A stretch of DNA of 37,780 nucleotides, taken from assembly GCA_003158295.1 (NCBI GenBank), contig PMIP01000011.1, positions 8,609 to 46,388 of the forward strand, read 5' to 3'. Positions 208 through 33,182 of this stretch are shown here, piece after piece; positions within the stretch are counted from its first letter, which is position 1, and each line of letters begins with the position of its first letter. Made by a program: the position numbers and the translations under genes. The stretch is from Chloroflexota bacterium. GTDB lineage: Bacteria > Chloroflexota > Limnocylindria > Limnocylindrales > CSP1-4. The notes beneath the pieces are model-generated. The model did no database searches. It was not told the origin of the DNA and worked only from the letters and a program-made list of their open reading frames with translations.

Positions 208-367
208 ACCGCCCTTCCCAGACCGGGCGCCGCGGAAGACCCCGGGGGCCGTTCGGCGCCTTCAGGCCTCGCCTGTACACGCGCCGTACCTGCGCCGGTG
301 GTTCCGAACTGAGAGGCAGAGAAATCGTGCATTCCGGCGCCCCATTCGAGTCCGGCAATGGTTATGC

Positions 368-381
368 TGCATTCGATTGCA
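368..381. promoter_or_regulatory. Putative LacI-type operator upstream of GH51
   Basis: TGCATTCGATTGCA is a 12/14 palindrome centred on CG, the usual centre of LacI-family operators. It lies 47 bases upstream of the GH51 start, just after a possible TATGCT -10 box (363-368). It shares the pattern NGCATNCGNNTGCN with the two stronger palindromes near 9197-9210 and 16091-16104. It is the most diverged of the three sites, so the call is tentative. Confidence 0.4.
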
Positions 382-428: not shown

Positions 429-1952
429 ATGGTCGAAGCTTCAATAGAGATCGGCGCCGATCCCATCGGGCGCATCTCGCCCCGCCTCTACGGGACTCTC
501 GCCGAGCACCTCGGACGCTGCTGTTACGACGGCCTGTGGGTCGGACCTTCGTCGCAGATCCCCAACGTAGAGGGGTTTCGCGAGGACGCTGTGGAAGCCC
601 TCCGCGATCTGCCGATGCCGCTGGCCAGGTGGCCCGGAGGCTGCTATGCCGACAACTACCACTGGCGGAAGGGGATCGGCAGCGCGGCCGAGCGACCCGT
701 GACTCTCGGCACCTCCTGCGGACTCTCCGTGGCCGACAGCAACGCCCTCGGAACGCACGAGTTCCTGCGCTTCTGCGAACTCGCCGGCGTAGAGCCGTAC
801 TTCGCCGGGAACGTTGGGAGCGGGTCCGTTCAGGAGCTGTGCGACTGGGTCGAGTACGTCAACTCCGACGTCGACACGTCCCTGGCCCGGGAGCGTGCGA
901 CCAACGGCTGCCCGGGTCCGGGGCATGTTCGGCTGTGGGGTGTGGGCAACGAGACCTGGGGCTGCGGGGGCAATTTCGACGCGGCCGCTTACGCCCAGGA
1001 GTACCTCCGCTACGCGACCATGCTCCGGCGGATCGATCAAGACATCGAGCTCGTGGCCGTGGGCCAGGAGGACGACCCGCTACCCGAGTCGGGCCTCGAT
1101 CCGGAGTGGAATGCAAGGTTCCTGGCGGCACTCGGGCCCAACGTCGGCCTGGTCGACCATCTGTCGGTTCACCGGTACTGGGTCCACGGAGGCCCCGAGA
1201 CGGATTTCGATGAGGCGGACTACTACGCGCTCCTGGCCGAGGCCGAGGCCACGGAGGCGCTGATCGAGCGTACGGTTCGGACGATCGCGGCAATTGCCCC
1301 GCCATCTCGTCGCATCGGCATCGCGCTCGACGAGTGGGGCGTATGGCATCCGGAGGCCCGAGACTGGGGACCTGGCAACGTGCCTCGCCGTACCCCTGCC
1401 ACGTTCGAGCAAGCGGGAACGCTCAGGGACGCACTAGCGGCCGCCGTGGCGCTGGAGGTCTTCCACCGGCAGTGCTCCGTGCTCTCGATGGCGAACCTGG
1501 CCCAGACCGTCAACGTCCTTCATGCCCTTCTGGTCACCGATGGGGCCGCGTGCGTGAAGACACCTACGTACCACGCCTTCTCCCTCCACAGCCCACACAT
1601 CGGTGCGCAGGCTCATGGCACACAGATCGCGACCGACATCACGCTGCCAACCGGCCACGCCGCGGTTAGTGCCACCGCCTCGAGGTCCGAGCGGGGAGCG
1701 GCGGTGACCGTCGTCAACCGCCACTTCGACCGAGCGATCGCCACAGGCGTGCACGTCGCCGACATGGCGGTGGAACGGGCACGCGTTCTTGCCGCGGATG
1801 CCGCCAACGCCGTGAACAGCCCACAGATTCCGGATCGCGTAGCCCCTCGACCTCTTGAGGTAATTCGAACGCCGGAGGGTGAGTTCACGTTCACTCTCCC
1901 GGCCCACTCGATGGCGACGATAGAGTTCCGCGCAGCCCGAGGGGTGCCATGA
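429..1952 (+). CDS. abfA: GH51 alpha-L-arabinofuranosidase, intracellular
   Basis: Predicted 507-residue glycoside hydrolase family 51 enzyme that removes terminal alpha-L-arabinofuranosyl groups from arabinoxylan or arabinan oligosaccharides. The N-terminus ([20 protein letters not shown]) and the L-A-R-W-P-G-G-C motif are typical of the family. The acid/base glutamate is in G-N-E-T-W-G (about E175) and the nucleophile glutamate in D-E-W-G-V-W-H (about E302). A beta-sandwich C-terminal part follows, and the length is normal. There is no signal peptide, so it acts in the cytoplasm on imported oligosaccharides. The start at 429 was chosen because it has an AGGAGG site 7 bases upstream and matches the family N-terminus. 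The longer frame beginning at 327 adds 34 residues unlike the family. The LacI gene follows closely, suggesting co-transcription. Confidence 0.93.
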
Positions 1953-1963
1953 CGTGCCATGAC
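1944..1963 (+). repeat. 10-bp tandem duplication at the GH51/lacI junction
   Basis: The ten bases GTGCCATGAC occur twice in direct tandem. The first copy contains the GH51 stop codon overlapping an ATG (ATGA, 1949-1952). The second contains the lacI start at 1959. If one copy is removed in thought, the lacI ATG falls exactly on a 4-base ATGA overlap with the GH51 stop, in the lacI frame. Confidence 0.8.
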
Positions 1964-3293
1964 GTATCAGGACCCGACCTGGACCGCGGTCAAGGCCAGG
2001 TTCTTGCCTACAGACCTGTGGAATCCGGGGTGGAACATGCGGGGCGATGAGTTGGAACCGGGCACCGGGGCAACGGACAACGCTTCTCCGGTCCGGCGCA
2101 AGCGCACCTCACGCACGGCGGACGATGGCCACGGATTGGCACCCAGGGCTCGGGGCGCCGAGAACGTGAGCCGCGGTGGGCGGCCGGTCCAGCTGGCGCG
2201 GCCGGCCACGATGCAGGACATAGCCGACGCCGTCGGAGTCTCCCAGAGCACGGTGTCGAGAGTCCTGGCCGGCGCGCCGATGCCCGTGCCGATCAGTCCG
2301 GCCACCCGCCAGCAGGTCCTGGACATGGCCCGCCAGATGCACTATCGGCCGAATCCACTGGCTCGCGGCCTGCGGGGCGCCAGGACGATGCTCCTCGGAG
2401 TCATTGTCCGCGAGATCACGGACCCGTTCTTCGCCGGCGCCATCGACGCGATTTCGGTGGAGGCAAGCAGGCACGGCTACAACGTCGTCCTGGGCCACGC
2501 CCACGGCCGGACGGACGAAGCCATCGCTCTCCGAGCAGTGTTGGAGACACGGCATTGCGACGCCATTCTTCTCGTCGGCGACACCAGCGACCAACCGCTG
2601 CTGCTGGAGGACCTGCACGAGGCCAATATCACGGTCGTCGGTATGTGGCAGGGATCTGCCGCATTGCCCGGCATCTCGACCGTCAACGTCGACAACCGAT
2701 TGGGGATCCGGCGCCTGATCGACCACCTCGTTGGACTCGGGCATCGATCGTTCGGGTTCATCGGCGGCTCGTTCTCCTTCGCCGGAGGACGCCCGCTCGG
2801 AGACATCCGGGAACGCAAGCTTGCCTTCCTGGAAAGCCTGTCCGAGCACGGCATCGAGGTCCCGCCCGAGTACTGCCGGGACGCCAAGAACAACTTCGCC
2901 GGCGGAGCAAGCGAATTCGAGGCCCTCATGGCCTTGCCCAATCCTCCCACCGCCATCCTGGCGTCCACGGACGTCCTGGCGATCGGAGCGTTGCGAGCCG
3001 CTCACCGTCTCGGGCTGGGCGTGCCCGGTGACGTTTCCATCGTGGGCTTCGACGACTTACCGTTCGCCGAGCACACCACGCCGCCCCTGACGACGGTTCG
3101 GCATCCGATCTCCGAGATGGCCGCGGTCGCGGTGCGCGCGGCGATCAACGAAGTATCGGGCAAGCCCTCTCCGATCGTCGAGTGCCTCGAGCCGACACTG
3201 ATCGTCCGGGAGTCTTCAGGCCCGGCGCCGTCCCTGCGCCAGGAGCCGAACGGGATTGAGGCCACCGCGGCCGGCGAGGTCGTGCCGGCCTAG
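1959..3293 (+). CDS. LacI-family transcriptional regulator
   Basis: DNA-binding regulator of up to 444 residues. A helix-turn-helix (TMQDIADAVGVSQSTVSRVL, about residues 84-103) is followed by the hinge Y-R-P-N-P-L-A-R-G-L and a periplasmic-binding-protein-like sugar sensor domain ending with G-F-D-D-L-P-F-A-E. The family usually represses sugar genes and is released by a sugar. Its place next to the arabinofuranosidase and convergent to a sugar-transport/GH3 operon suggests a pentose or xylo-oligosaccharide signal, which is inference. The N-terminal 70-80 residues before the HTH are unusually long and basic. Other starts are GTG 2166 (HTH preceded by ~15 residues, the usual layout) and ATG 2211. 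The ATG at 1959 is supported by the junction duplication but has no ideal ribosome site. Confidence 0.9.
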   Translation: MTYQDPTWTAVKARFLPTDLWNPGWNMRGDELEPGTGATDNASPVRRKRTSRTADDGHGLAPRARGAENVSRGGRPVQLARPATMQDIADAVGVSQSTVSRVLAGAPMPVPISPATRQQVLDMARQMHYRPNPLARGLRGARTMLLGVIVREITDPFFAGAIDAISVEASRHGYNVVLGHAHGRTDEAIALRAVLETRHCDAILLVGDTSDQPLLLEDLHEANITVVGMWQGSAALPGISTVNVDNRLGIRRLIDHLVGLGHRSFGFIGGSFSFAGGRPLGDIRERKLAFLESLSEHGIEVPPEYCRDAKNNFAGGASEFEALMALPNPPTAILASTDVLAIGALRAAHRLGLGVPGDVSIVGFDDLPFAEHTTPPLTTVRHPISEMAAVAVRAAINEVSGKPSPIVECLEPTLIVRESSGPAPSLRQEPNGIEATAAGEVVPA

Positions 3294-3337: not shown

Positions 3338-5677
3338 CTACTCCACGACCACCTTGGTGAAGTAGCGGCTGCGACGGACGCCGGCCACGGCTTCGCCTGT
3401 GATCTCGATCTGCGCCTTGCAGGGCAGGTCGACCGACGAGGAGCCGGCCATGATCGTGACCAGCCCCGGTTCGATCACGAGACTGCCGTCCACGCCCGTG
3501 AAGGCCAGCTGCTCGGCTGCCAGCCCAAACCGGACCCTTCGGGCCTCGCCTGCGGCCAGGTGGACTCGCTTGAACCCCCGTAGCTCCTTGACCGGTCGAG
3601 TGACGCTCGCTTCCTCGTCCCGAACGTACAGCTGCACGACCTCATCACCGGCCCTGTCACCGACGTTGGCGACCTCGACGCTCGCCTCGAACTCACCACG
3701 CACATCCACGCTCCCGCGATCCAACCGCAGATCGCGTACCTCGAACCGGGTGTACGACAGCCCAAAGCCGAACGGCCAGAGAGGCTCGTTGGATCCGTCG
3801 ACGTAAGGCCCCTTCCAGGTCGAGTGGCCTCCCGACGGCTTGTGACCGTAGTAGATGGGGATCTGACCGACAGAGCGCGGAACCGTGATGGGGAGCTTGC
3901 CGCCGGGGTTCGTGACACCGAAGAGCACGTCGGCCAGCGCCTCGGGACCTTCTTCTCCGGGAACCCAGGCGTGGACGACGGCGGCCACGGACGAGGCCTC
4001 CGATTCGATCGCCAGCGGTCGTCCTGCGACGAGGACCAGCACGACAGGCGTCCCTGTCGCGATGACGGCCGCTACGAGCTCCCCCTGGCGGCCGGGGAGG
4101 CCAATGTCCATGCGATCGCGACCCTCTCCGCAGGTGCAGTCTTCGGTCAAGCCCGATTTCTCGCCGACCACCACGATCGCTACGTCGGCACCCATGGCCG
4201 CGTCGACCGCAGCCCTGATTCCTTCGTCATCCCCATCCTTGATTCCACAGCCCGGGGCGAAGCGTACCTCTGTCGAGTCGCCCAGCCGATGGCGGATGGC
4301 GTCCAGCATCGTCGCCGCACCCGCAAGCTCGTCCTCGACCTTGAACCCCTCCGGCAGCTTCGAGCCGAAGCCGCCCATCTCAATGAGCGCCTCGATGTGG
4401 ACTGCGTGCGCGTAGTCCCCGATCAGATTCCGGGCGCTATCGGCACTGGGCCCGATGACGGCTACGGAGCGCAGGCCCGGGCGCAGCGGAAGGATCCCGC
4501 TATTGGAGAGCAAGACCATGGATTGGCGGGCCATCTCTCGGGCGAGGGCCCGGTCGTCGGCGGACGGCAGGCCGGCTTCTTCCGGATCGACGTAGGGGTT
4601 CTCGAAGAGGCCCAGCTCGAACTTGGCTCGGAGAACGCGCGCCACAGCCGCATCGACAGTCGCCTCCGACACGCGACCGGATGAGACGGCCTCGGCCAGA
4701 GGGCCGGAGAAGAAGCGGTAGGTCGGCAGTTCGACGTCAAGGCCCGCCTCGAGCGCCAGTGCGGCGGCGGTTGGGCGGTCACCCGTCATCCCATGGGAAT
4801 TGATTATCTCGTCGACTCCCATGTAGTCCGAGACGACGGTCCCGCCGAAGCCCCAGCGATCACGCAGCACCTCCGTGAAGAGGAACCGAGAGGCCACGCA
4901 GGGCATGCCGTCGACGTCGTCATAGGCATGCATCACTGAACCCATGCCGGCGTCGCGAACGGCAGCCTCGAACGGGAAGAGGAAATAGTCCGCCAGCTCG
5001 CGGGGGCCGATGTGCACCGGAGCGTGGTTCAGGCCACCCTCGGGCAGGCCGTGGCCGACCATGTGCTTGCCGGTGGCAATGACTCCCCGCTTGGTGCCGT
5101 CGGTCTCCTGCAGGCCGCGAACGTAGGCGGCTCCGCACTCCGCGACGAGATACGTATCTTCGCCGAATGTCTCCTCGACCCGGCCCCAGCGCGGATCGCG
5201 AGTGATGTCGAGGATCGGCGCGAGAGCCTGGTGCGCGCCGGCCGCTCGGAGTTCACGCCCCAGCCGCTCCGCCATCGCCCGGACAAGGTCCGGATCCCAG
5301 GTCGCCGCCTGGCCGATGGACTGCGGGAAGCAAACCGACTCACGGGCCAGCAGTCCGTGCAGGCATTCCTCGTGGATGATGGCCGGGATCCCCAACCGGG
5401 TCCGCTCGACGAGGAATTGTTGGATCTCGTTGGCGAGCTCCGCCACACCTCGCTGGGGAAGGTTGGTGACTCCGGCAACCCGGCTGATCTGACCGATGCC
5501 GAGGGCGAGGCGTTCGCCTGCTTTTGTCTCGTCGAACGCCTCGCGACTCAGGATTTCGTAACCCCAGTACGAGCCCAGCTGAGCGAGCCGCTCCTCGAGC
5601 GTCATCCGCCCGAGGAGATCGGCTACTCGCTCATCTATGTTCGCATTGGCGTCCCGATAGGGGGCGTCTGCGGCCAA
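3338..5677 (-). CDS. GH3 beta-glycosidase (beta-xylosidase/beta-glucosidase)
   Basis: Glycoside hydrolase family 3 enzyme of 779 residues. The N-terminal pattern R-V-A-D-L-L-G-R-M-T-L-E-E-R begins the TIM-barrel domain, with K-H-M-V-G-H-G and the nucleophile aspartate in V-V-S-D-Y-M-G (about D284). The alpha/beta sandwich and a C-terminal fibronectin-III-like domain follow (pattern G-D-E-V-V-Q-L-Y-V-R-D near the end). No signal peptide is seen, so it is probably cytoplasmic and acts on imported oligosaccharides; context favours xylo-oligosaccharides, but glucosides cannot be excluded. The start is TTG at 5677, four bases after the stop of the upstream permease, because the first ATG (codon 25) would cut into the conserved N-terminus. 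It is the last gene of the transporter operon. Confidence 0.9.
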   Translation of the reverse strand: MAADAPYRDANANIDERVADLLGRMTLEERLAQLGSYWGYEILSREAFDETKAGERLALGIGQISRVAGVTNLPQRGVAELANEIQQFLVERTRLGIPAIIHEECLHGLLARESVCFPQSIGQAATWDPDLVRAMAERLGRELRAAGAHQALAPILDITRDPRWGRVEETFGEDTYLVAECGAAYVRGLQETDGTKRGVIATGKHMVGHGLPEGGLNHAPVHIGPRELADYFLFPFEAAVRDAGMGSVMHAYDDVDGMPCVASRFLFTEVLRDRWGFGGTVVSDYMGVDEIINSHGMTGDRPTAAALALEAGLDVELPTYRFFSGPLAEAVSSGRVSEATVDAAVARVLRAKFELGLFENPYVDPEEAGLPSADDRALAREMARQSMVLLSNSGILPLRPGLRSVAVIGPSADSARNLIGDYAHAVHIEALIEMGGFGSKLPEGFKVEDELAGAATMLDAIRHRLGDSTEVRFAPGCGIKDGDDEGIRAAVDAAMGADVAIVVVGEKSGLTEDCTCGEGRDRMDIGLPGRQGELVAAVIATGTPVVLVLVAGRPLAIESEASSVAAVVHAWVPGEEGPEALADVLFGVTNPGGKLPITVPRSVGQIPIYYGHKPSGGHSTWKGPYVDGSNEPLWPFGFGLSYTRFEVRDLRLDRGSVDVRGEFEASVEVANVGDRAGDEVVQLYVRDEEASVTRPVKELRGFKRVHLAAGEARRVRFGLAAEQLAFTGVDGSLVIEPGLVTIMAGSSSVDLPCKAQIEITGEAVAGVRRSRYFTKVVVE

Positions 5678-5681
5678 TACC

Positions 5682-6587
5682 CTAACCCTTGACCGATCCG
5701 GCAGTCAGACCGCCGACGATCTGGCGCTCCGCCAGGCCGTAGAAGATGATCGCGGGCATGATCGCGCAGACCGTGAAGGCAAGGATGCGGGCCTGGTCAG
5801 AAACGTACAGACCTGAGAAGTTCATGACACCGAGCGGAAGGGTCCATTGATCCTGGCCGCCCAGAAGAATCAGCGGCAGCATGAACGCATTCCATGTGCC
5901 GACGATGGCCAGAACGCTCACAGTCGCGAGGGCGGGCCGTGCCAGCGGCAGCAACACGCGCCAGAAGAAGCCGAACGTGCTGCAGCCATCGATCTTCGCC
6001 GCGTCCTCGAGTTCCACCGGGATGCTTCTGAAGAAGGGCCGGAGGATGATGATCGTCAACGGCAGTCCAAACGCGGCCTGAGGTAGGGCCACGCCGAGAA
6101 GGTTCTCGCTCAGACCGATCTGCTTGACCAGGATGTACAGGGGCAGGATCGCCACGGCCGACGGGAAGAGCAATCCGAGCGTGAACAGCGTATAGAAGAT
6201 CTCGCGACCGCGGAACACCATCCGCGCAAAGACGAAGGCCGCGAGGGACGCCAGGCCGACGGTCAACCCGACGGCAACCACGGCGATTATCAAGCTGTTC
6301 GCGAACTCTCTCCAGAAGGTCGCGGCGTCTGCCCCAAACACGACGTCCGTGTAGTTGGACAAGACCCATGGAGCGGGGATAAGGGCCAGTGGATCGCCGA
6401 GGAGCTGGCCGTTGCTCTTGAACCCGCCGAGTACCGCATACACGATTGGGATGAGGATCACACCGGCTACGACGATGAGGATCACGTAGCGGACGATGCT
6501 CAGGAAGTTCCGACGGACGAGCTTGAGCCTCTGTCCGCCGATGGCGCTGACTGAAGTGGTCGTACTTGTGGACGTGGTGGTCGTCAT
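5682..6587 (-). CDS. Sugar ABC transporter permease, MalG type (CUT1)
   Basis: Inner-membrane subunit of a carbohydrate ABC transporter, 301 residues with six predicted membrane spans. The cytoplasmic loop that contacts the ATPase is visible as E-L-E-D-A-A-K-I-D-G-C, followed by F-F-W-R-V-L-L-P-L-A-R-P, typical of the MalG branch. The ATG at 6587 is preferred over a frame from 6629 because it lies four bases after the stop of the partner permease and avoids overlap. The N-terminal ~25 residues are an odd Thr/Ser-rich stretch. It pairs with the next permease and the binding lipoprotein. No ATP-hydrolysing subunit is encoded nearby, so a shared MsmK/MalK-type ATPase elsewhere is likely. Confidence 0.93.
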   Translation of the reverse strand: MTTTTSTSTTTSVSAIGGQRLKLVRRNFLSIVRYVILIVVAGVILIPIVYAVLGGFKSNGQLLGDPLALIPAPWVLSNYTDVVFGADAATFWREFANSLIIAVVAVGLTVGLASLAAFVFARMVFRGREIFYTLFTLGLLFPSAVAILPLYILVKQIGLSENLLGVALPQAAFGLPLTIIILRPFFRSIPVELEDAAKIDGCSTFGFFWRVLLPLARPALATVSVLAIVGTWNAFMLPLILLGGQDQWTLPLGVMNFSGLYVSDQARILAFTVCAIMPAIIFYGLAERQIVGGLTAGSVKG

Positions 6588-6591
6588 CGCA

Positions 6592-7533
6592 CTACCCGTT
6601 GAATGCCGTGACTGCGCCCTCGACGTCACGCTGCAGCACGAAACGCTGGTAAGCGAGCGCCAGGACGAGGGCGAAGAGGAACAGGATCACTGCGAGAGCG
6701 CTTCCATACCCCATCTGTTGATTCGTGAAGCCAGCCTTGAACATGGCTATGGCCATGGTATTCGAAGCGCCAAGAGGACCGCCCTTGGTCATGACCCAGA
6801 TCATGTCGAACAGCTGCAACGCTCCGATCATCGAGAGGAAGACGGAGACTCGCAGGGTCGGGCCGAGAAGGGGCAGAGTGATGTGACGGAACGCTTGCCA
6901 GCGACCTGCTCCATCGATGAGGGCCGCTTCCTCGATCTCGCGAGGGATGCCCTGCAAGCCGGCCAGCAGCAGGATCATGTGAAAACCGAAGTACTTCCAC
7001 GAGATGATGACGAACAACGTGATCATCACGAAGCCCGGGTCGCCGAGCCAGTCCTGTATCAGGCCACCCAAACCCAGGCTACTAAAGCCGGAATCAATGA
7101 GCGCCCCCGGCCGCAGCAGCAGCGAGAAGACGACGCCGGTGATGGCCTCCGATAGGACGTAGGGCAGGAAGAAGATCACCCTGAATACCGTCCGGCCCCT
7201 GAATCGCCGGTTCAAGAGGACCGCGAGCGAGAGTGAGAACGGGATCTGGAGCGTTAGCGAGAGCACGATGATCAAGAAGTTGTTCGACACCGCGGTCCTG
7301 AAAGTGTCGCTACCAAGTGCCGTCGCGTAGTTCCTCAGCCCAACGAAGTTGTCGAGCGGCTGCAACCCGTTCCATTTGTAGAGGCTGTAGTGGGCAGCCT
7401 GAATGACCGGGACCAGGACGAACAGAAGGTAGAGAGCCAGGGCCGGCAATAGGAACAGGGAGATCGTCACCCATTTGGTCGGTACTCTGAACCCGACCCG
7501 TGGCCGGGCACCCGTTGCGCTCGTTGCGCTCAT
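6592..7533 (-). CDS. Sugar ABC transporter permease, MalF type (CUT1)
   Basis: Partner permease of 313 residues with six predicted spans. The EAA loop reads E-I-E-E-A-A-L-I-D-G-A-G-R-W-Q-A-F followed by I-T-L-P-L-L-G-P, diagnostic for the MalF/UgpA-like group. The ATG at 7533 has an AGAGGA site about 6 bases upstream; an in-frame GTG at 7548 overlaps that site and is less likely. Together with the MalG-type permease and the lipoprotein it forms a CUT1 importer, probably for xylo- or arabino-oligosaccharides given the GH51 and GH3 neighbours (inference). Confidence 0.93.
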   Translation of the reverse strand: MSATSATGARPRVGFRVPTKWVTISLFLLPALALYLLFVLVPVIQAAHYSLYKWNGLQPLDNFVGLRNYATALGSDTFRTAVSNNFLIIVLSLTLQIPFSLSLAVLLNRRFRGRTVFRVIFFLPYVLSEAITGVVFSLLLRPGALIDSGFSSLGLGGLIQDWLGDPGFVMITLFVIISWKYFGFHMILLLAGLQGIPREIEEAALIDGAGRWQAFRHITLPLLGPTLRVSVFLSMIGALQLFDMIWVMTKGGPLGASNTMAIAMFKAGFTNQQMGYGSALAVILFLFALVLALAYQRFVLQRDVEGAVTAFNG

Positions 7534-7564
7534 CGCCGTTCCTCTCACCTCACCCGGGGGAATC

Positions 7565-7633: not shown

Positions 7634-8995
7634 CTACTGGGCAGCAGCCGCGGTGGTGATTGCTGCGCAGACCTTCGCCGGGGTGGATGCGCCTTCGAAC
7701 AAAGCGACAGTCGCCTCGTTGATCGCCGTGCCCATGGCCGGAGAGGTCGCCTGGTCGAGATAGAGCTGCATGAAGGTAGCCTTACCACGGCCGGCCAGAA
7801 CGAGCTGGAGGTTCGCATCCGTGACAGCGCTCTCGGTGCCGATGACCGGCGAGAGGGCGGTGGCCGGACTCGAAGCGTTGAGCTTGGTCGCGTTGTAAAC
7901 GCTGCTGAAGAACTTGAGGAAGTCAATGGCTTCCGGCGGCGCGTTCTTTCCGACCGCGATGCCGTTGCCGCCGCCAACTCCGTCAGTCGCAGCGCCCTTG
8001 CCGCCAGCAACCGTCGGGAACGGGAACCAACCGAGATCGGCTCCGATGCCCTTCTTGTTGGTGGCGTCGTTCGCCTCGGTGCCTGGGGCCCACTGGCCCA
8101 TCACTTCCATGGCAGCCTGGGCGTTGCCAACAGCGGCAGCCTCGTTGTCGTAGGTAGCGCTCTTGTAGCCGGGCTGATAGGGATTGAGGGCGTTGAGCTT
8201 GACAACCTGGTCGCCGGCCGCCGTGCAGGCGTCAGTGTTCCAGTTGCCGGAGCTGATCATCGTCCGGAGCGCATCGCCGCCGCCAATGCGGAGGAGGAGG
8301 TACGTCCAGAGGTGCATGGAGGGCCACATGTCCTTGCCCGCGATGGCGAGCGGGACGATGCCAGCGGCCTTGAGCTTGGAGACGTCGGCAAGGAAGTCAT
8401 CCCAGGTCGCGGGCGGAGCGGAGATGCCGGCCTTGGTGAACAGCGCCTTGTTGTACCAGACGCCGATCATTCCCATATCCCACGGGACGCCGTACTGGTG
8501 GAAGACGCCGCTCTTGTCCGTGAGGCCGTAGATGCTCATGGCGCCCTTGTTGACCGTGTCAGCCCATGGCGCCACGGCGGCGGTGATGTCCTGGAGCATG
8601 CCGGCATCGGCCTGAGCCTGCATGATGCCGCCACCCCACGACTGGAAGAGGTCAGGCGACGTGCCCGACTGCATCGTGGTCGCGAGCTTGGTCTTGAAGG
8701 CCTCGTTCTCGAGGACCGTGATGTTGATCTTGACGTTCGGATGGGCCGCTACGTAAGCGTCCGCGATCCCCTGGAAGATCGACTTGCCCGGTTCGCCAGT
8801 GGTGATGTGCCACCACTCGATGGTCACAGCCTTGGGCGTCGGGGTCGGCGTGGCGACGGCCGGCGCGGGCGTCACGGCCGGCGCGGGCGTCGCGGCCGGC
8901 GCGGGCGTCGGCGATGCGGCGGTCGATGAGCATGCACTGGCGACCAGCGCGAGGATGGCGGCTCCAGCCAGGAACCGCGTCGGGATCAATTTCAC
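7634..8995 (-). CDS. Sugar-binding lipoprotein of CUT1 ABC transporter
   Basis: Extracytoplasmic solute-binding protein, family 1, 453 residues. The N-terminus is a lipoprotein signal (A-L-V-A-S-A-C, cleavage before Cys22), followed by a Pro/Ala/Thr linker that places the domain away from the membrane. The mature domain begins V-T-I-E-W-W-H and has the typical P-D-L-F-Q-S-W-G and G-V-P-W-D-M-G-M-I-G-V-W-Y-N-K motifs of oligosaccharide binders. The start is GTG at 8995 with an AAGGAG site 8 bases before it. It is the first gene of an operon with two permeases and GH3. A promoter with an embedded palindrome lies about 190 bases upstream. The exact ligand cannot be read from sequence. Confidence 0.92.
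   Translation of the reverse strand: MKLIPTRFLAGAAILALVASACSSTAASPTPAPAATPAPAVTPAPAVATPTPTPKAVTIEWWHITTGEPGKSIFQGIADAYVAAHPNVKINITVLENEAFKTKLATTMQSGTSPDLFQSWGGGIMQAQADAGMLQDITAAVAPWADTVNKGAMSIYGLTDKSGVFHQYGVPWDMGMIGVWYNKALFTKAGISAPPATWDDFLADVSKLKAAGIVPLAIAGKDMWPSMHLWTYLLLRIGGGDALRTMISSGNWNTDACTAAGDQVVKLNALNPYQPGYKSATYDNEAAAVGNAQAAMEVMGQWAPGTEANDATNKKGIGADLGWFPFPTVAGGKGAATDGVGGGNGIAVGKNAPPEAIDFLKFFSSVYNATKLNASSPATALSPVIGTESAVTDANLQLVLAGRGKATFMQLYLDQATSPAMGTAINEATVALFEGASTPAKVCAAITTAAAAQ
8858..8911 (-). repeat. 18-bp tandem repeat in lipoprotein linker
   Basis: Three near-identical 18-bp units (GGCCGGCGCGGGCGTC plus two variable bases) encode the Ala-Pro-rich linker after the lipid-modified cysteine. 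Length variation between strains would be expected from slippage. Confidence 0.75.
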
Positions 8996-9475
8996 CTGGG
9001 ACTCTCCTTCATGTCACGAGACGCTCCGGCCGGGCGATCGACGGGCGATCGACGCTCTGCGGCCCTCCCTTCCAAACAACCCAAGTACTCTGATCGGCGC
9101 CTCCTCCATTGCTCGCGAGGCCGTTGCCGGGCTCGCTAGCCGCGTAGCATGATTCCGCCCTCCCGTGACGGCGGCGCAGCGCGTGCATACCTATGTAGCA
9201 TACGCATGCTGGCACAGTCAAGGGCCGCCAAGGACTTGCTGGCGTAGGATCTCCGGCATACGATTTACTCCTCTCGGCGGGCGCGTTCCAGCGACGGCCG
9301 GCGAGCGAGCCTGGGATCTATCGAGTCTTTTCTTGACTCGAGCGGTCGCAGGCCGCGACACGCCAGAGCCGGTCCGGCGCAAGAACAGGGATATGTCAAG
9401 GTTGCCAACGGCGGCCTGCGAGCCCTCGAATGGGCCCGGCAAGGCTGCAAGAGTCGCATTTTGGAGGTCGAAGCC
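8996..9475. other. Divergent intergenic region between sugar-binding gene and xylA
   Basis: The 480 bases between the binding-lipoprotein GTG and the xylA ATG hold no convincing gene; short frames here are leader sequence. It contains an 11-bp tandem repeat CGGGCGATCGA (9031-9041 and 9042-9052) in the minus-strand leader, the promoter/operator at 9189-9222, and a half operator GCATACG at 9256-9262 facing xylA. A TTGACT at 9333-9338 on plus has no good -10 partner, so the xylA promoter is not identified. Confidence 0.6.
9189..9222 (-). promoter_or_regulatory. Promoter with spacer palindrome, copy 1 (binding protein/permease/GH3 operon)
   Basis: Read on minus: TTGACT (9216-9221), an 18-base spacer, then TACATA (9192-9197). 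The palindrome AGCATGCGTATGCT (9197-9210, one mismatched pair) fills most of the spacer, so a bound repressor would block RNA polymerase directly. The whole 34-bp block is 30/34 identical to 16083-16116, far more than expected for two unrelated intergenic regions. The centre CG fits a LacI-family operator. Confidence 0.7.
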
Positions 9476-10666
9476 ATGGTCCTGACGACGGGCGGCGCAG
9501 CGCACGAGGCGTATCGGCCGACCAGCGCCGACAAGTTCACCTTCGGCTTGTGGACGGTGGGCAATGCGGGGCGCGACACGTTCGGCAGCGAGACCAGACC
9601 GCGGCTGGACCCAAACGACAGCGTCCGCAAGCTGGCCGAGCTCGGGGCTTACGGCATCTCAATGCACGACGACGACCTCGTCCCGTACGACGCCTCGCCG
9701 GCCGAGCGCGACCGGATCGTCGGGCGCCTCAAGGAGACCCTGGCCGATACCGGCATGGTCGTGGCGATGGCGACGACCAACCTCTTCGGCCATCCGGTCT
9801 TCAAGGACGGGGCCTTCACCTCAAACGACCGAGCGGTGCGCCGCTACGCCATCGCCAAGACGATGCGGGCGATCGACATCGGGGCCGAGCTTGGGGCCAA
9901 GATCTACGTCTTCTGGGGCGGCCGCGAAGGCGTGGAGGCGATGGCGTCGAAGCGACCGGGAGACGCCCTGGACCGCTTCCGCGAGACCATGGACTTCCTG
10001 TGCGAGTACGTGATCGATCGCAAGTACGGGATGCGCTTCGCGATGGAGCCAAAGCCCAACGAGCCGCGCGGCGATACCTTCCTGCCGACGGTTGGCCACG
10101 CGCTGGCCTTCATCGGCACTCTGGCCCATCCCGAGATGGTCGGGCTCAACCCCGAGACGGCGCACGAGACGATGTCGGGCCTGTCCTTCTACCACGCCGT
10201 GGCCCAGACCCTCTGGCAGGGCAAACTCTTCCACATCGACCTCAACGGCCAGAAGATCGGCCGCTACGACCAGGACCTGCGCTTCGGCTCGGAGGGCATC
10301 AAGGATGCCTTCTTCCTGGTCAAGCTGCTCGAGGAGTCCGGCTACGAGGGGCCGCGCCATTTCGACGCTCACTCCTACCGCAGCGAGAACATGGAAGGCG
10401 TCTGGGACTTCGCCGCGGGTTGCATGCGGACGTACCTGATCCTCAAGGAGAAGGCCAAGCGCTTCGCCGCCGACCCCGAGATCACTGCCGCCCTGGCGGC
10501 GGCTTCCGTCCCCGAACTGGCCCTCCCCAGCGTGGGCCGCTATTCAGCCAAGTCCGCCGCAGAGCTGGCGGCGAACCCCGGCGACCCCAACGAGCTTGCT
10601 CGACGCGGCTACGGCAACGAGCGCCTCGACCAGCTGGTCATGGAGTTGCTCATGGGCGTCCGGTGA
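9476..10666 (+). CDS. xylA: Xylose isomerase
   Basis: Cytoplasmic metal-dependent enzyme that converts D-xylose to D-xylulose, 396 residues, the length of the actinobacterial-type (short) group. Conserved parts seen are the catalytic histidine in M-H-D-D-D (about H64), the metal ligand and lysine in [10 protein letters not shown] (about E191, K193), N-P-E-T-A-H-E, and the D-x-D pair in Y-D-Q-D-L-R-F-G. The ATG at 9476 has a GGAGG site 8 bases upstream; a TTG at 9461 would overlap that site. xylB follows after a short gap in the same direction. The sequence gives full-length matches to all catalytic motifs. Confidence 0.96.
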
Positions 10667-10705
10667 CGGTGGACTGACGCCAGCCGGCACGGGACCGCGA
10701 TTACG

Positions 10706-12166
10706 ATGGCAGCGATGAGAACGCTGGTCGCGGGCGTCGATTGCTCTACCCAGTCGACCAAGGTCCTCGTCATCGACGTAGATACCGGTGAGATCGTCGG
10801 GCGAGGACAGGCCCCGCACGCGGTCACCGGTGTGGGCGGAGCTCGCGAGACTCAACCGGACGTATGGTGGGAGGCTCTTCGCATCTGTCTGGGACAGACC
10901 GGTGTCGCCCGCGACATAGCCGCCATCGCCGTCGCCGGCCAGCAACATGGCCTCGTGTGCCTGGATGCGAGCGGCAGGCCTCTCCGCCCGGCAATGCTCT
11001 GGAACGACACACGGTCGGCCCCGGACGCGGCCCGGCTCGTCGAGGCATTGGGCGGCGCCGAGGCCTGGGCCAAGCGGATCGGAAGCGTTCCGGTGGCATC
11101 GTTCACAGCCACAAAATGGGCCTGGATGAGGCGGCTCGAGCCCGAGATTGCAGCTCGGACGCGTGCCCTCCGCCTGCCCCACGACTATCTCACCGAACGG
11201 CTCACGGGAGAGGGAGTCACGGATCGGGGTGACGCGTCGGGCACGGCCTGGTGGTCGACGGACACGGAGAAGTACGCTCCCGGCGTCCTCTCGCTGCCGG
11301 AGCTGGATCTGCCGCCCGAACTCCTGCCCCGAGTCCTCGAACCGACCGAGCCCGCCGGCTCCGTCACGGCCGAGGCTGCCGAGGCGACCGGCCTTTCGGT
11401 CGGAGCGCTCGTTGGCCCGGGCACGGGCGACAACATGGGCGCGGCATTGGGTTTGGGGCTGCGACCGGGCATGCCCGTGCTCAGCCTCGGAACTTCCGGG
11501 ACGGTCTACCTTGTCTCCAAGACACGCACCGCCGATCCGACCGGGAGCGTCGCGGGCTTCGCCGACGCCACTGGCAAGTTCTTGCCACTTGCCGCAACCC
11601 TGAACTGCACTCTCGCCGTGGATCGTGTGGCGGCGCTGTTCAAGCTGGACCGCAACGATGTCGCTCCTAGCAACGGTGTCGTGGCCCTGCCCTACTTCGA
11701 CGGTGAGCGCACGCCCAACCTGCCCGAGGCGGCCGCGGCGTTCCTCGGGCTGCGCCACGAGACGGATCCGCGGTCGATCCTGATGGCCACGTACGAGGGC
11801 GCCATCGTGAGCCTCCTCGACGCGCTCGACGTTATCGATCAGTGCTCGTCCGGGGTGGATGCTGGCGCGCCGCTCACTCTGATCGGCGGAGGAGCGAGGG
11901 GCGAGACCTGGCAGCGCGTGGCACAACGCCTTTCCGGGCGGGCGATCTCCATACCGGACGCGACCGAGCTAGTGGCGATCGGCGCGGGCGTGCAGGCGGC
12001 GGCCACGCTGCGAGGCGAGACGGCACAGAACGTGGCCGCTCGCTGGCAGACGGACCACGGAACCCTGCTCGAGCCTATCGCCCGCGACGCGGAGACGATC
12101 TCCTACCACCGAGCCGTCCGGCAGCTTGCGCTGGCAGCGGTACAGAGCCGCCCGGAAGCGAGTTGA
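10706..12166 (+). CDS. xylB: Xylulokinase
   Basis: FGGY-family sugar kinase of 486 residues that phosphorylates D-xylulose to xylulose 5-phosphate. The first ATP-fold domain opens with G-V-D-C-S-T-Q-S-T-K and contains V-A-G-Q-Q-H-G, typical of xylulokinase. The second has the catalytic aspartate in G-T-G-D-N-M-G-A, S-L-G-T-S-G-T-V, and the adenine-site I-G-G-G-A-R-G. It follows xylA by 39 bases. No clear ribosome site precedes either possible ATG (10706 or 10715). A TACGAT box ends 7 bases before 10715, so a leaderless secondary transcript from 10715 is possible but has no -35 match. Confidence 0.94.
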   Translation: MAAMRTLVAGVDCSTQSTKVLVIDVDTGEIVGRGQAPHAVTGVGGARETQPDVWWEALRICLGQTGVARDIAAIAVAGQQHGLVCLDASGRPLRPAMLWNDTRSAPDAARLVEALGGAEAWAKRIGSVPVASFTATKWAWMRRLEPEIAARTRALRLPHDYLTERLTGEGVTDRGDASGTAWWSTDTEKYAPGVLSLPELDLPPELLPRVLEPTEPAGSVTAEAAEATGLSVGALVGPGTGDNMGAALGLGLRPGMPVLSLGTSGTVYLVSKTRTADPTGSVAGFADATGKFLPLAATLNCTLAVDRVAALFKLDRNDVAPSNGVVALPYFDGERTPNLPEAAAAFLGLRHETDPRSILMATYEGAIVSLLDALDVIDQCSSGVDAGAPLTLIGGGARGETWQRVAQRLSGRAISIPDATELVAIGAGVQAAATLRGETAQNVAARWQTDHGTLLEPIARDAETISYHRAVRQLALAAVQSRPEAS

Positions 12167-12217
12167 TCCGCCGCTCTCCGTGAACGAGACCCCGAGGCGG
12201 TCCTGGACCGAGCCCGA

Positions 12218-13042
12218 TCAGCCGTGGAGCTTGGCAAGCTCCGTCTGAGTGACCTCGCTCGGCAGCTTCCCCATGATGATCATGCCCAGGACCTCGTCCG
12301 TCGTCACTTCCGTCTTGTTGACCGTACCGACGAGCCTGCCGTGGAGCATGACGCTGATTCGATCGGCCAGGTCGAAGACGTCGTGGATGTCGTGGCTGAT
12401 CAGGAAGATGCCGATCCCTTCGGACTTCAGCTGCTTGATCACGTTTCGCACTTGCACGGTCTCGGCCGGACCGAGCGCCGCCGTGGGCTCGTCCATGATC
12501 AAGACCCGGGCGTTGAAGTGGATGGCCCGGGCAATGGCGATGGCCTGCCGCTGGCCGCCGGAGAGGGAGACGACCGGCGTCTTGAAGTTCTTGAAGTTGG
12601 GGTTCAAGCGCCCCATGACCTTGCGGGTAGCCGATTCCATCGCCGAGTCGTCGAGCGACCCTGTTCGAGTCTTGAGTTCCCGGCCGAGGAAGAAGTTGGC
12701 CGGGGCGTCAATGTTCTCGGCCAGCGCCAGGTTCTGATAGATCGTTTCGATGCCGAGAGCCTTGGCCACGCGCGGATTCGGTATAGAGACGGGCTGGCCG
12801 TCGATCAGGACCTCGCCGGAATCGGCCGGGTGGGCCCCCGAGAGGGTCCGGATCAGCGTCGTCTTGCCGGCGCCGTTGCCGCCGACCAGGCCGACGACCT
12901 CTCCCGGACGGAGATCCACGGTGACGTTCTGAACTGCGTGAACGCCACCGAAAGCCACGCTGATTTCGCGCAGCTCGACGAGGGGCGCACCCGCGACCGT
13001 CGCAGCGGTCGTGGGTTCGGCGGGGGTGGGTGCGATGCTCAT
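12218..13042 (-). CDS. xylG: Xylose ABC transporter ATP-binding protein, single domain
   Basis: ABC ATPase of 274 residues that powers the XylF/XylH importer. Walker A is G-G-N-G-A-G-K-T-T, the signature is L-S-G-G-Q-R-Q, Walker B is [11 protein letters not shown], and the switch histidine is in I-S-H-D-I. Unlike the two-domain XylG of enterobacteria (about 510 residues), only one ATPase domain is present, so it should work as a homodimer. An AGGGAG site precedes the ATG. It follows the permease by 16 bases and ends converging with xylB. Confidence 0.92.
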
Positions 13043-13058
13043 CTTCTTGCTCCCTGGC

Positions 13059-14429
13059 CTACTTGGAACGCCGCTGAAGAATAGTGTCGAGGCCGACCAC
13101 GAACACCAGAACCGAACCGATCGCGACGTCCTGCATCGGCGAATCCAGGCCGATTGTGACCATGCCGGCCTTGAGCGACTGCATGAGCACCGCCCCGAGG
13201 ATTGCGCCCTGGATCGTGCCGACGCCGCCGGAGAATGACGTGCCGCCGATGACGGCCGCGGCGATCACGAGCAGCTCATATCCGGTTCCTGTGCTGGTCA
13301 CGCCGGCGTCGAGCCGGGACGCCTGGATGCACGCGGCAACGGCGCAGAGAACGCCCATCAGCACGAACGTGCCGAGGATGATGCGCTTCGTGTTGATACC
13401 GGCAAGGGTGACCGCTTCGGGGCTGCCGCCGATCGCGAAGACGTAGCGGCCGAACTGGCGTCTGGTCGCCAGGTAACCCATGACCAGCCCGATGCCCAGA
13501 AGAATCAGGACCGGAGCCGCGAGGCCGACCGGAATGATCAGGCCGCCGGGCGGCTCGGTGGTGCCGTGAGCCGTTGCGAACTGGGTGGCGAGTCCGGGCG
13601 GCAGGGGGTAGTTGTTGAGGACCCAGGCGAAGAACAGGACGGCGGCCCAGCCTGCCGCTATCAACACAGTCATGGCCCACCGCGGCCGGACGGGGAATCC
13701 GTACTTACGGCGCTTGCCGCTGCTGCTGATCAGCGCATACGCGATCCCCGCGCAGATCAATAAGGCGACAATCCACGTCGGCCAGAATCCGATTGCGCCA
13801 CCGCTGTCGCTGATCGCGCTGCCGCTGGAGAGGTTGCCGCCGATGATGGCGAAGTTCTTGTCCATGGGCGCGATCGTCTGGCCCTGCTGGATCTTGAAGA
13901 TGAGACCGCGCCATATAAACCAGCCGCCCAGAGTGACGATGAACGAGGGGATCCCGATATAGGCGATCAGGCCGCCCTGAATGGCCCCGATCACGGCGCC
14001 GACGGCGACGGCGACCAGGACCGCGACGACCCAGATCTCCCACGAGCCGTAGGCGAGATGCAGGTCCTCGGTCAGCCAGATACGCTGCGTCATCGCGGCG
14101 AAGTAGGCCGTGAGGCCCATGACTGAACCGACCGAGAGGTCGATGTTCCGCGAAACGATGATCAGAACCATGCCCGTGGCCATGATCGCGACCGGCACGC
14201 TCTGGACGGAGACGTCGTAGAGGTTGCGCGGCGTCAGGAAGAGGCCGTTCGAGGCATAGCCGAAGCCCAGCCAGATAGCGATCAGGGCAAGGATCATGCC
14301 CGTCAGCCGCAGATCGATCTCCATCGTCCGAGCACCGGACCGAAGGACGACCTGCAGCGGTTTCGTCGCCCGCCTCCACGCGGGCTGAATCGGCGCCGGG
14401 CCCTGTGCTTGTCCCACAACCTGACTCAT
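13059..14429 (-). CDS. xylH: Xylose ABC transporter permease
   Basis: CUT2-family permease of 456 residues with more than ten predicted membrane spans. Family marks are [37 protein letters not shown] and [13 protein letters not shown]. Between about residues 200 and 320 is a long stretch with extra hydrophobic segments, as in XylH rather than the shorter RbsC. It lies between the binding protein and the ATPase in one operon. Confidence 0.93.
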
Positions 14430-14480
14430 CGCTAGCCTCTCGACTGACCTGAGATCAAAAGACTCGTCACCCCTAATGTT

Positions 14481-14519
14481 ACGCGCCCTGCGCCGCGGTT
14501 TCCCGGGCGCAGGGCGCGT
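14481..14519 (-). terminator. Intercistronic hairpin between xylF and xylH
   Basis: A perfect 14-bp stem (ACGCGCCCTGCGCC) with an 11-base loop sits between the xylF stop and the xylH start. There is no U-run on the minus transcript. Position and form match the hairpin at 7565-7593 in the other transporter operon, pointing to the same role in giving the binding protein more message than the membrane parts. Confidence 0.6.
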
Positions 14520-14545
14520 CGATTGCCTCTAGATCTCGCGAGCTG

Positions 14546-15706
14546 CTAGCAGCCCGTGACGGATCCGGCGGTCACGTCCTTGCAGAGCGTGGCCTTGTCG
14601 ATCCACTTGGCGTCAAGGACGACCTGGAGGTTGTCCTTGGTGATCGCCTGCGGGGTGATGAGGATCGAGTTCAGGCTGTTGCCGCCCGGTGACTTGAAGA
14701 CGGCGGACTTGCCTTGCGCTGTCGAGATGTCGGCCATCTTGGTGCCAGCGCAGAGGGCAGCGGCAGCCTCACCGGCCGCGTTGCCGAGGAGGCGGGCGTC
14801 CTTCCAGACGTCAACGGTCTGGGTTCCGAGGGCGATGCGGTTCAGAGCCGCGGCGTCGCCGTCCTGTCCGGAGACCGGAACCTTGCCGGCAAGGCCCTGA
14901 GACTTCAGGGCGGCGATGACGCCACCGGCCATGCCGTCGTTCTCAGTGAAGGCGATGTCGATCTTGTTGTTGTTCTTGGTGAGCAACTGGGCCATCTCGT
15001 TCTGGGCGTTGGCCGGATCCCAGTTGTCGGTGTAGGTCTCGCCGACGTTGACGAGCTTGCCGGTCGGATCGGTCTGGCCGACATCCGGGACACCAGCCTG
15101 GACCATGCCGGAGCGGAGGAAGTCCGCGTTGGCATCGGCCTTGTTGCCCTTGATGACGACGAAGTTGCCGGAGCTCTTGACGGCGAGGAGAGCCTGCGCC
15201 TGCATCTTGCCGACGAGGACGTTGTCGAAGGTGATGTAGAACGCGCCCGGATCTTCGATCAGGCGGTCATACGCGATGACCCCGACGCCGGCCGCGATAG
15301 CCTTGGCAACGGACGGCTTGATGGCCGTTCCGTCCTGGGCCAGGATGATCACGACCTTGGCGCCCTGGTTGATCAGAGCGTCGACGTTAGAGGCCTGGGC
15401 GTCCGTGGACGACTTAGCGTCGTTCGAGATGTAGGTGTCGCCAGCCTTGGTGAGAGCAGCCTTGATCGCCGGCTCGTCCCACTTGGCCCAGCGCTCTTCC
15501 TGGTAGTTGTTCCAGGAGACGCCGACGGTGCAGGGCGCGGCCGGGGTGGCCGCCGCCGGGGTCGCCGCGGCCGGGGTGGCCGCCGCAGGGGTCGCTGCGG
15601 CCGGGGTGGCCGCCGCAGGGGTCGGAGATGCCGCCGAGCTAGAGCAGGCTGAGGCGACGAGCGCCACGACTGCGACTAGGGCTGCTGCTTTGCGACTACT
15701 GAACAT
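14546..15706 (-). CDS. xylF: D-xylose-binding lipoprotein
   Basis: Periplasmic-binding-protein-like sugar binder of 386 residues. A lipoprotein signal (A-L-V-A-S-A-C) is followed by an Ala-Thr-Pro linker made of five-residue repeats. The mature part has the XylF hallmarks G-V-S-W-N-N-Y-Q-E-E-R-W, V-I-A-Y-D-R-L-I, and F-D-N-V-L-V-G-K-M-Q-A. The ATG at 15706 is preferred over a frame from 15799: it has an AAGGAGG site upstream and a proper signal peptide starts there. First gene of xylF-xylH-xylG; the likely promoter is about 380 bases upstream at 16083-16116. Confidence 0.95.
   Translation of the reverse strand: MFSSRKAAALVAVVALVASACSSSAASPTPAAATPAAATPAAATPAAATPAAATPAAPCTVGVSWNNYQEERWAKWDEPAIKAALTKAGDTYISNDAKSSTDAQASNVDALINQGAKVVIILAQDGTAIKPSVAKAIAAGVGVIAYDRLIEDPGAFYITFDNVLVGKMQAQALLAVKSSGNFVVIKGNKADANADFLRSGMVQAGVPDVGQTDPTGKLVNVGETYTDNWDPANAQNEMAQLLTKNNNKIDIAFTENDGMAGGVIAALKSQGLAGKVPVSGQDGDAAALNRIALGTQTVDVWKDARLLGNAAGEAAAALCAGTKMADISTAQGKSAVFKSPGGNSLNSILITPQAITKDNLQVVLDAKWIDKATLCKDVTAGSVTGC
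15541..15624 (-). repeat. 30-bp tandem repeat in XylF linker
   Basis: About 2.8 copies of a 30-bp GC-rich unit, itself two 15-bp half units, encode the A-A-T-P-A repeats of the XylF linker. A low-complexity spacer, not a CRISPR. Confidence 0.8.
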
Positions 15707-16147
15707 ATGTCCCTTCCTCCTTGTGGAATGGATGCGGATCGCGATCCGCCAAGCGACTGTCTTCCGCGTTAAGCTACCGGACCTCCTCTCCGCCTTCAAA
15801 TCGGTCTTCGATTCCGGAGACTAATTGAATGGATCGCTCATGCCCTGAGCTGTACCGGGGCCTCACTCCGGCGCCCGGCCGGATCCCTGTGGCAGCGGAA
15901 CCGTCTGACTCACAATCCTAGTAGCGGATCCGCCGCAGGGTCTCGTTCAGAACAAGAGCCGTACCGTCGATCGCTTGCGGCACGCGCGGACATGATATAG
16001 CAGAGATGCTGATAGCTTCTGGGCGCGATCGGGTCATCTCCCGTGTTGCCCGGTTGGGCACGAGCATGTGGGCCGGGTGTCCACCTATGTAGCATACGTA
16101 TGCTTCCCCAGTCAAGATCGTGAGGCAGATCGTGGAGCGGGGCCCGT
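15707..16147. other. xylF leader region
   Basis: About 440 bases without a convincing gene. It holds the long xylF 5' leader. A perfect 16-bp palindrome GCGGATCGCGATCCGC at 15734-15749 ends 27 bases before the xylF start and could be an operator or a hairpin. The promoter/operator copy 2 lies at 16083-16116. Confidence 0.55.
16083..16116 (-). promoter_or_regulatory. Promoter with spacer palindrome, copy 2 (xylFHG operon)
   Basis: Read on minus: TTGACT (16110-16115), 18-base spacer, TACATA (16086-16091). The spacer contains the perfect 14-bp palindrome AGCATACGTATGCT (16091-16104). The 34-bp block matches 9189-9222 at 30 positions. The start of transcription would be near 16079, giving a leader of roughly 370 bases. 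A LacI-family repressor site is the simplest reading. Confidence 0.72.
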
Positions 16148-33133: not shown

Positions 33134-33182
33134 CGCCCACCGCATGGGCTCGCCGCCCCTGCAAACTCGGGAGGCTCAAACC

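Follow-up and report, generated by a model that had tools for sequence, protein, structure and literature searches.

The window analysed here, a 37,780-nucleotide stretch of contig PMIP01000011.1 from the draft genome of a Chloroflexota bacterium (2.7 Mb, 101 contigs), contains two near-identical 34-bp promoter elements and further palindromic sites in a locus with genes for GH51, LacI, GH3, two permeases, a binding protein, xylA, xylB and a xylose-type ATP-binding cassette (ABC) transporter. The repeated elements are real and are conserved in related bacteria. Judging from sequence comparison, they very probably serve as operators for a LacI-family repressor, the 1959-3293 protein, which would control the import and catabolism of pentoses and arabinoxylan locally and together with its own gene. 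This is a familiar kind of gene switch, well conserved, and it is now better defined than in the first-pass annotation of the window. Two features go beyond that annotation: an overlapping double dyad with a 13-bp shift in the repeated element, and a further CG-centred site on the -10 of the divergent xylA-xylB promoter. We refer to the repeated element as class A and to the site before GH51-lacI as class B. The predicted sites and promoters are as follows, with hyphens marking dyad centres and SBP standing for solute-binding protein.

9185-9209, minus strand: class A composite operator 1, GCATGC-GTATGC T ACATAG-GTATGC, two overlapping dyads with centres 13 bp apart
9192-9221, minus strand: promoter of SBP-permease-permease-GH3; -35 TTGACT at 9216-9221, 18 bp, -10 TACATA at 9192-9197, TGC before the -10
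16092-16103, minus strand: class A operator 2, perfect upstream dyad GCATACGTATGC; third half-site lost (GTGGAC)
16086-16115, minus strand: xylFHG promoter; -35 TTGACT at 16110-16115, 18 bp, -10 TACATA at 16086-16091
9236-9264, plus strand: xylA-xylB promoter; -35 TTGCTG at 9236-9241, 17 bp, -10 TACGAT at 9259-9264
9256-9267, plus strand: xylA operator covering the -10, GCATACGATTTA, weakened in the window
362-381, plus strand: class B operator TTATGCTGCATTCGATTGCA, before GH51-lacI

The two class A copies, at 9189-9222 and 16083-16116, are identical at 30 of 34 bases while their flanks cannot be aligned, as the first-pass annotation had reported. It had also described both correctly as reading, on the minus strand, TTGACT, 18 bases and TACATA, with a palindrome in the spacer (AGCATGCGTATGCT in copy 1, AGCATACGTATGCT in copy 2), and as preceding the two binding-protein operons, SBP-permease-permease-GH3 and xylFHG, where the promoters are predicted. 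The third palindrome that it had named, TGCATTCGATTGCA at 368-381, was likewise found upstream of GH51-lacI, 47 bases from the likely GH51 ATG at 429. In eight simulated windows (Markov-1, seeded search), the best same-strand pair reached 27/34. The real window also contains another pair at 33/34, and the longest shared runs seen were short tandem repeats within open reading frames (ORFs).

The specificity of several search patterns was compared with reversed or other controls. The degenerate motif offered in the annotation, NGCATNCGNNTGCN, gave five strand matches at three places in the window against 0.52 expected. In the whole genome it was not enriched (21 strand matches versus 25 in the reversed control), and it is therefore too loose as a genome-wide search tool. 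The 21-base element occurred at two places in the same genome, with none in the control. Other patterns were rejected. The dyad GCATACGTATGC with two mismatches gave 27 places in the genome against 37 in the control. In the 21 genomes of the genus, CGGCATACGATTGC with two mismatches was present in all 21 (334 strand matches versus 176 in the control); it was common also in those without this LacI, and is thus too loose for defining the regulon. The core TATGCTNCAT gave 44 matches in the genus versus 43 in the control, so by itself it is not specific.

We then compared the 21 genus genomes and 107 genomes of the family (27 genera). A class A search with GCATNCGTATGCTACATAGGT (short form GCATnCGTATGCTACATAGGT), allowing up to three mismatches, identified 16 places in 12 of the 21 genus genomes and none in the reversed control. 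The family-wide search added no place beyond the genus: matches were confined to 12 of 107 genomes, all in one of the 27 genera, and the control gave three. The 12 genomes with the element are exactly those with an orthologue of the LacI protein (best E <1e-140) and a full-length xylA (E <1e-200). In all 12, the element lies about 100-515 bp upstream of xylA, and in 11 of them it reads away from xylA. The operon on its other side varies, being SBP-permease-GH3, another permease operon (G002), xylFHG, or none that could be seen (G015). Of 80 XylF loci taken from a different collection, four, all from fen isolates, carried the dyad with no more than one mismatch. One genus genome without the LacI orthologue or the element, G009, has a 42-residue stretch 74% identical to xylA (L157, C197), perhaps a remnant or a diverged copy; its single TATGCTACAT is located elsewhere and resembles neither class A nor class B.

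Alignment of the 16 class A sites on TATGCTACAT revealed a single conserved block, GCATnCGTATGCTACATAgGTATgC. The block begins at the outer end of one dyad and ends at, or one base past, the outer end of the other, and it consists of two 12-base dyads with centres 13 bases apart. The upstream dyad has a central CG in 16/16 sites, and both its halves carry an outer G. The weaker downstream dyad has GG at its centre in 14 sites, TG in one and CG in one. The third half-site of the block reads GTATGC in 11 sites and GTATTC in four, and GTGGAC only in the xylF copy of the window. TTGAC is conserved separately, in 14 of the 16 sites. The spacing from TTGACN to TACATA was 18 bases in 11 sites, 17 in two and 21 in one, which indicates that the -35 drifts relative to the block.

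The outer half-site was kept in 15/16 class A sites over the genus. On this pattern it is possible, though somewhat improbable, that class A is a genuine overlapping double operator, used by two dimers or by one dimer shifting registers, in a way not accounted for by the published structures of LacI-family proteins. In the excerpted text of Ravcheev et al. (2014, PMC4052901), the spacing of LacI-family sites has peaks at 13, 22 and 32 bp, and sites about 13 bp apart precede 110 operons, a known minority class that is described as hard to reconcile with structures.

The class B pattern in relatives, GGTATGCTACATTCGATTGC, was found at 12 places in 10 of the 21 genus genomes, with no match in the control. 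Eleven of these places precede lacI, GH51-lacI or, in G005, a second lacI copy; what follows in G001 is a partial GH51 match and then lacI. The strong class B dyad is ACATTC-GATTGC, and its register is that of the downstream dyad of class A. The outer base of its left half is A in eight, G in two and C in two of the 12 sites. The proposal that the CG centre and the neighbouring lacI point to LacI-family operators agrees with the comparison, since not only the upstream class A dyad but also the class B dyad (12/12) is CG-centred. The remaining class B place, without mismatch (G017, L214 2531-2540), is before a 651-aa ORF with DUF6851 and VCPO_2nd domains, which is at first sight unrelated to pentoses.

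A further site was recognized at the xylA-xylB promoter. Between the class A element and xylA, ten of the 12 genomes, including the window, share TTG (TTGnTG in nine), 17 bases and TACGAT, with a CATAC-GATT core over the -10. The full right half GATTGC is present in seven of the ten; the window has GATTTA. The distance from this site to the class A dyad was 59 bp in seven, 58 in one and 57 in one of the nine genomes in which it could be measured (G015 and G017, for which the best match had been the class A dyad, were left out of this count and their xylA regions were read by eye). The -35 boxes of the two divergent promoters lie toward each other, and each -10 bears a site. The xylA site combines a class A half (GCATAC) with a class B half (GATTGC), which ties the two classes to one binder. 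The first-pass annotation had suggested one regulator for oligosaccharide import, xylose import and the lacI operon. The comparative evidence favors such a regulator, but the list was incomplete, as xylA-xylB appears to belong to the regulon too.

The 1959-3293 protein has a LacI helix-turn-helix (HTH; PF00356, 5.7e-13) and a sensor domain (PF13377, 8.2e-36), and its closest solved structures are CcpA, a reconstructed ancestral LacI-family protein and PurR. Its recognition helix GVSQSTVSR is identical in 14/14 close sequences aligned, the window's included. The hinge NPLARGLRG aligned to NAVARGLAS of CcpA, and the Ala and Leu that are the partners of the central CG were kept in all 17 aligned sequences. 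According to the excerpted text of Camas et al. (PMC2978694), Arg-20 is paired with G at NT-6, and AA-15/16 are linked to NT-5/-4. The half-site GCATNC has G at NT-6 and CA at NT-5/-4, and TVSR in the protein has Arg at AA-20. In the compact locus L132, LacI was the sole regulator among six ORFs scanned. No ROK-family regulator was found among the 19 window ORFs and six L132 ORFs scanned, which are a part of all ORFs.

The LacI ORF has about 80 residues ahead of the HTH (1959-2205), and the ORF of the G017 orthologue likewise starts well upstream. In G007, a second LacI copy (63% identical) is beside xylFHG, and the promoter there has CAAACGTTTGC instead. At this second xylFHG promoter (L134 9320-9355, minus strand), CAAACGTTTGC and CAACGTTTGC are 14 bp apart; the specificity may have shifted, with the recognition helix unchanged. 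A CG-centred element that ends in GTGCGCACnCG was seen (L136 10370-10432, L137 11186-11250 and L138 13900-13920) near deeper LacI paralogues, which are 44-49% identical to that of the window. L136 and L137 have two copies, 42-44 bp apart, at the divergon of GH127 beta-L-arabinofuranosidase and SBP; L138 has a single copy. That these paralogues share the half-site is suggestive only, because more than one centre can be assigned to their repeated element.

We propose the following model from the sites, their conservation, their positions and the gene content; its predicted parts are the identity of the binding protein, the sign of control (repression, not activation), the inducer, the precise promoters and the start points. 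A LacI dimer would bind CG-centred dyads with the half-site GCATNC / GNWTGC. In the SBP-permease-GH3 and xylFHG promoters, the class A operators would lie between the -35 and -10 and extend across the latter, and at the divergent xylA-xylB promoter the xylA operator would cover the -10. With the class B operator in front of GH51-lacI, the regulator would limit its own production. When sugar is absent, the promoters would be blocked by occlusion of the -10 or the spacer. A pentose or a short (arabino)xylo-oligosaccharide may free the dimer from DNA, whereby uptake, side-chain trimming and entry into the pentose phosphate pathway would be switched on together.

Another DNA-binding protein, either a different LacI-family regulator or a global carbon regulator, might bind the sites, with the local LacI as a bystander or a sharer. 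There are seven further matches to the LacI protein in the same genome, which also count against the proposed regulon, and CG-centred dyads suit most LacI-family regulators (Ravcheev 2014, PMC4052901, excerpted text). No class A site, however, was found outside the 12 genomes with this LacI clade, and class B is upstream of its gene in most. Moreover, dyads within one mismatch of GCATACGTATGC were limited to the two window sites in the genome, whereas a global regulator should have others. We therefore consider another binder unlikely. The shared block could also be merely a conserved extended -10 promoter, TATGCTACAT, without an operator. The TATGCTNCAT common to class A and class B reads as TRTG and a weak -10, and 13 of 16 class A sites have TTGAC 17-18 bp ahead of TACATA, a further one having it at 21 bp. 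Conservation nevertheless extends, on either side, as far as the dyads do, and the site adjacent to xylA in G015 keeps the dyads without TTGAC, with no operon seen on that strand. Nor is the block a promoter of general use: class A or B places make up 28 of the 44 matches that the core TATGCTNCAT has in the genus, the remaining 16 compare with 43 in the reversed control, and the 11 of these 16 that were viewed in context resemble neither class. A promoter without an operator is thus very unlikely. The near identity of the two 34-bp copies within one window might suggest a remnant of recent local duplication or recombination without function. This is already contradicted and can be given hardly any credence: G012 has the element at both positions, and the element persists, with unrelated flanks, in relatives whose LacI is 61-76% identical to that of the window.

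Several observations weigh against operators of the local LacI repressor, or restrict the regulon. The sites, lacI and xylA are in one locus, so that their coincidence (12/12 versus 0/9) reflects joint inheritance and is not an independent test; the other nine genus genomes showed weak xylA matches in seven (E 1e-24 to 1e-14) and none in two. The class A element of G001 is inverted and weak (three mismatches), class B of G004 is weaker, with 4/20 bases differing by eye, and the xylA site of G017 is degraded. G015 has neither a class B match nor a recognisable xylA site. TACATA is a poor -10, and the lacI core of the window reads TGCATT. Of 16 XylF matches in the genus, seven have a class A site; the copies without one include two close ones (G013 C61 and G007 C166) and seven distant ones, which indicates that the regulon does not span every transporter copy.

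The sites were also scored with a symmetric matrix trained on 28 sites from relatives; the window and its nearest relative G012 were excluded. The aberrant class A site of G001 was omitted from the training too, which is a further reservation. The three sites of the first-pass annotation scored 19.9, 19.8 and 17.8 and ranked 1-3 in the window; as the training sites had been found with window-derived patterns, this tests consistency and is no independent discovery. The maxima of 40 simulated windows were 8.7-17.2, and none reached the 17.8 of the third site. On the negative side, the xylA site of the window scored 8.9 (rank 7) and the second class A dyad 12.1, neither being significant alone, and a site within the lacI coding DNA outscored both (12.9).

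The xylose-regulon gene set (xylA, xylB and a xylose transporter) is present in the locus, and its genes are listed below.

429-1952, plus strand: GH51 alpha-L-arabinofuranosidase (Pfam match; NCBIfam match under its cut-off)
1959-3293, plus strand: LacI-family regulator, HTH from about residue 83, recognition helix GVSQSTVSR
3338-5677, minus strand: GH3; top NCBIfam match beta-xylosidase/alpha-L-arabinosidase, under cut-off
5682-7548, minus strand: two ABC permeases (5682-6629 and 6592-7548)
7634-8995, minus strand: solute-binding protein SBP_bac_1
9461-10666, plus strand: xylA, xylose isomerase (TIGR02631 above cut-off)
10706-12166, plus strand: xylB, xylulokinase (TIGR01312 above cut-off)
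12218-15799, minus strand: xylose-type ABC transporter xylFHG; ATPase 12218-13042, permease 13059-14429, XylF 14546-15799

XylF matched TIGR02634 with 317.7 bits, under the cut-off of 389.55. The ATPase at 12218-13042 has just 274 aa, and its top matches span about half of the XylG/RbsA-type models of about 500 aa. The ORF at 9430-10677 was rejected as a gene: it had no family match, and xylA is the overlapping frame 9461-10666. Short repeats inside ORFs were seen at 8857-8910, 15536-15628 and 30169-30242 (18, 30 and 54 bp apart), the first two in the N-terminal regions of both binding proteins. At 33144-37780, an ORF with 1545 codons or more leaves the window and has internal repeats about 549 bases apart. 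No known RNA family reached the gathering threshold in the window.

The predicted regulon resembles the LacI-family local regulons in the excerpted text of PMC4052901 in its CG-centred even dyads in promoters, autoregulation and control of sugar operons. It differs from them in the half-site GCATNC and in the 13-bp overlap, which is kept at class A sites genus-wide. The word XylR is absent from the main text of that paper, and Chloroflexi account for about 1-2% of its regulons. XynR of Anaerocellum bescii, as presented in the excerpted text of PMC12285236, is similar in that a LacI-family regulator governs xylan and xylose genes, among them xylB, a beta-xylosidase gene and the gene of the regulator itself. 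Its operators are different, however, e.g. aatcgaaatcgcttacaatt, and the xylA operator of its host is assigned to a ROK-family XylR; according to that paper, distant homologues in Chloroflexi do not cluster with xylose genes. For E. coli GntR (LacI family) at gntKU, a pair of overlapping operators about 13 bp apart is also known, through the excerpted text of PMC4052901; that system serves the gluconate pathway, and the likeness is by description, not by sequence. Among the open-access papers found on Chloroflexi or LacI-type xylose regulons (including PMC12285236 and PMC12901349), none covers this regulon, judging from the title or the opening of the abstract. No open-access paper was found for 'LacI family' with 'overlapping operators'.

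The regulon would be one for pentose use in Chloroflexota that are known here only from draft genomes, several of which come from fens. The xylF copy of the window, with its outer half-site lost, and the single-dyad xylA site would be natural controls within one locus. This natural operator series, consisting of a double operator, a double operator with a lost half-site and a single operator, suits testing the 13-bp overlap of LacI-family sites.

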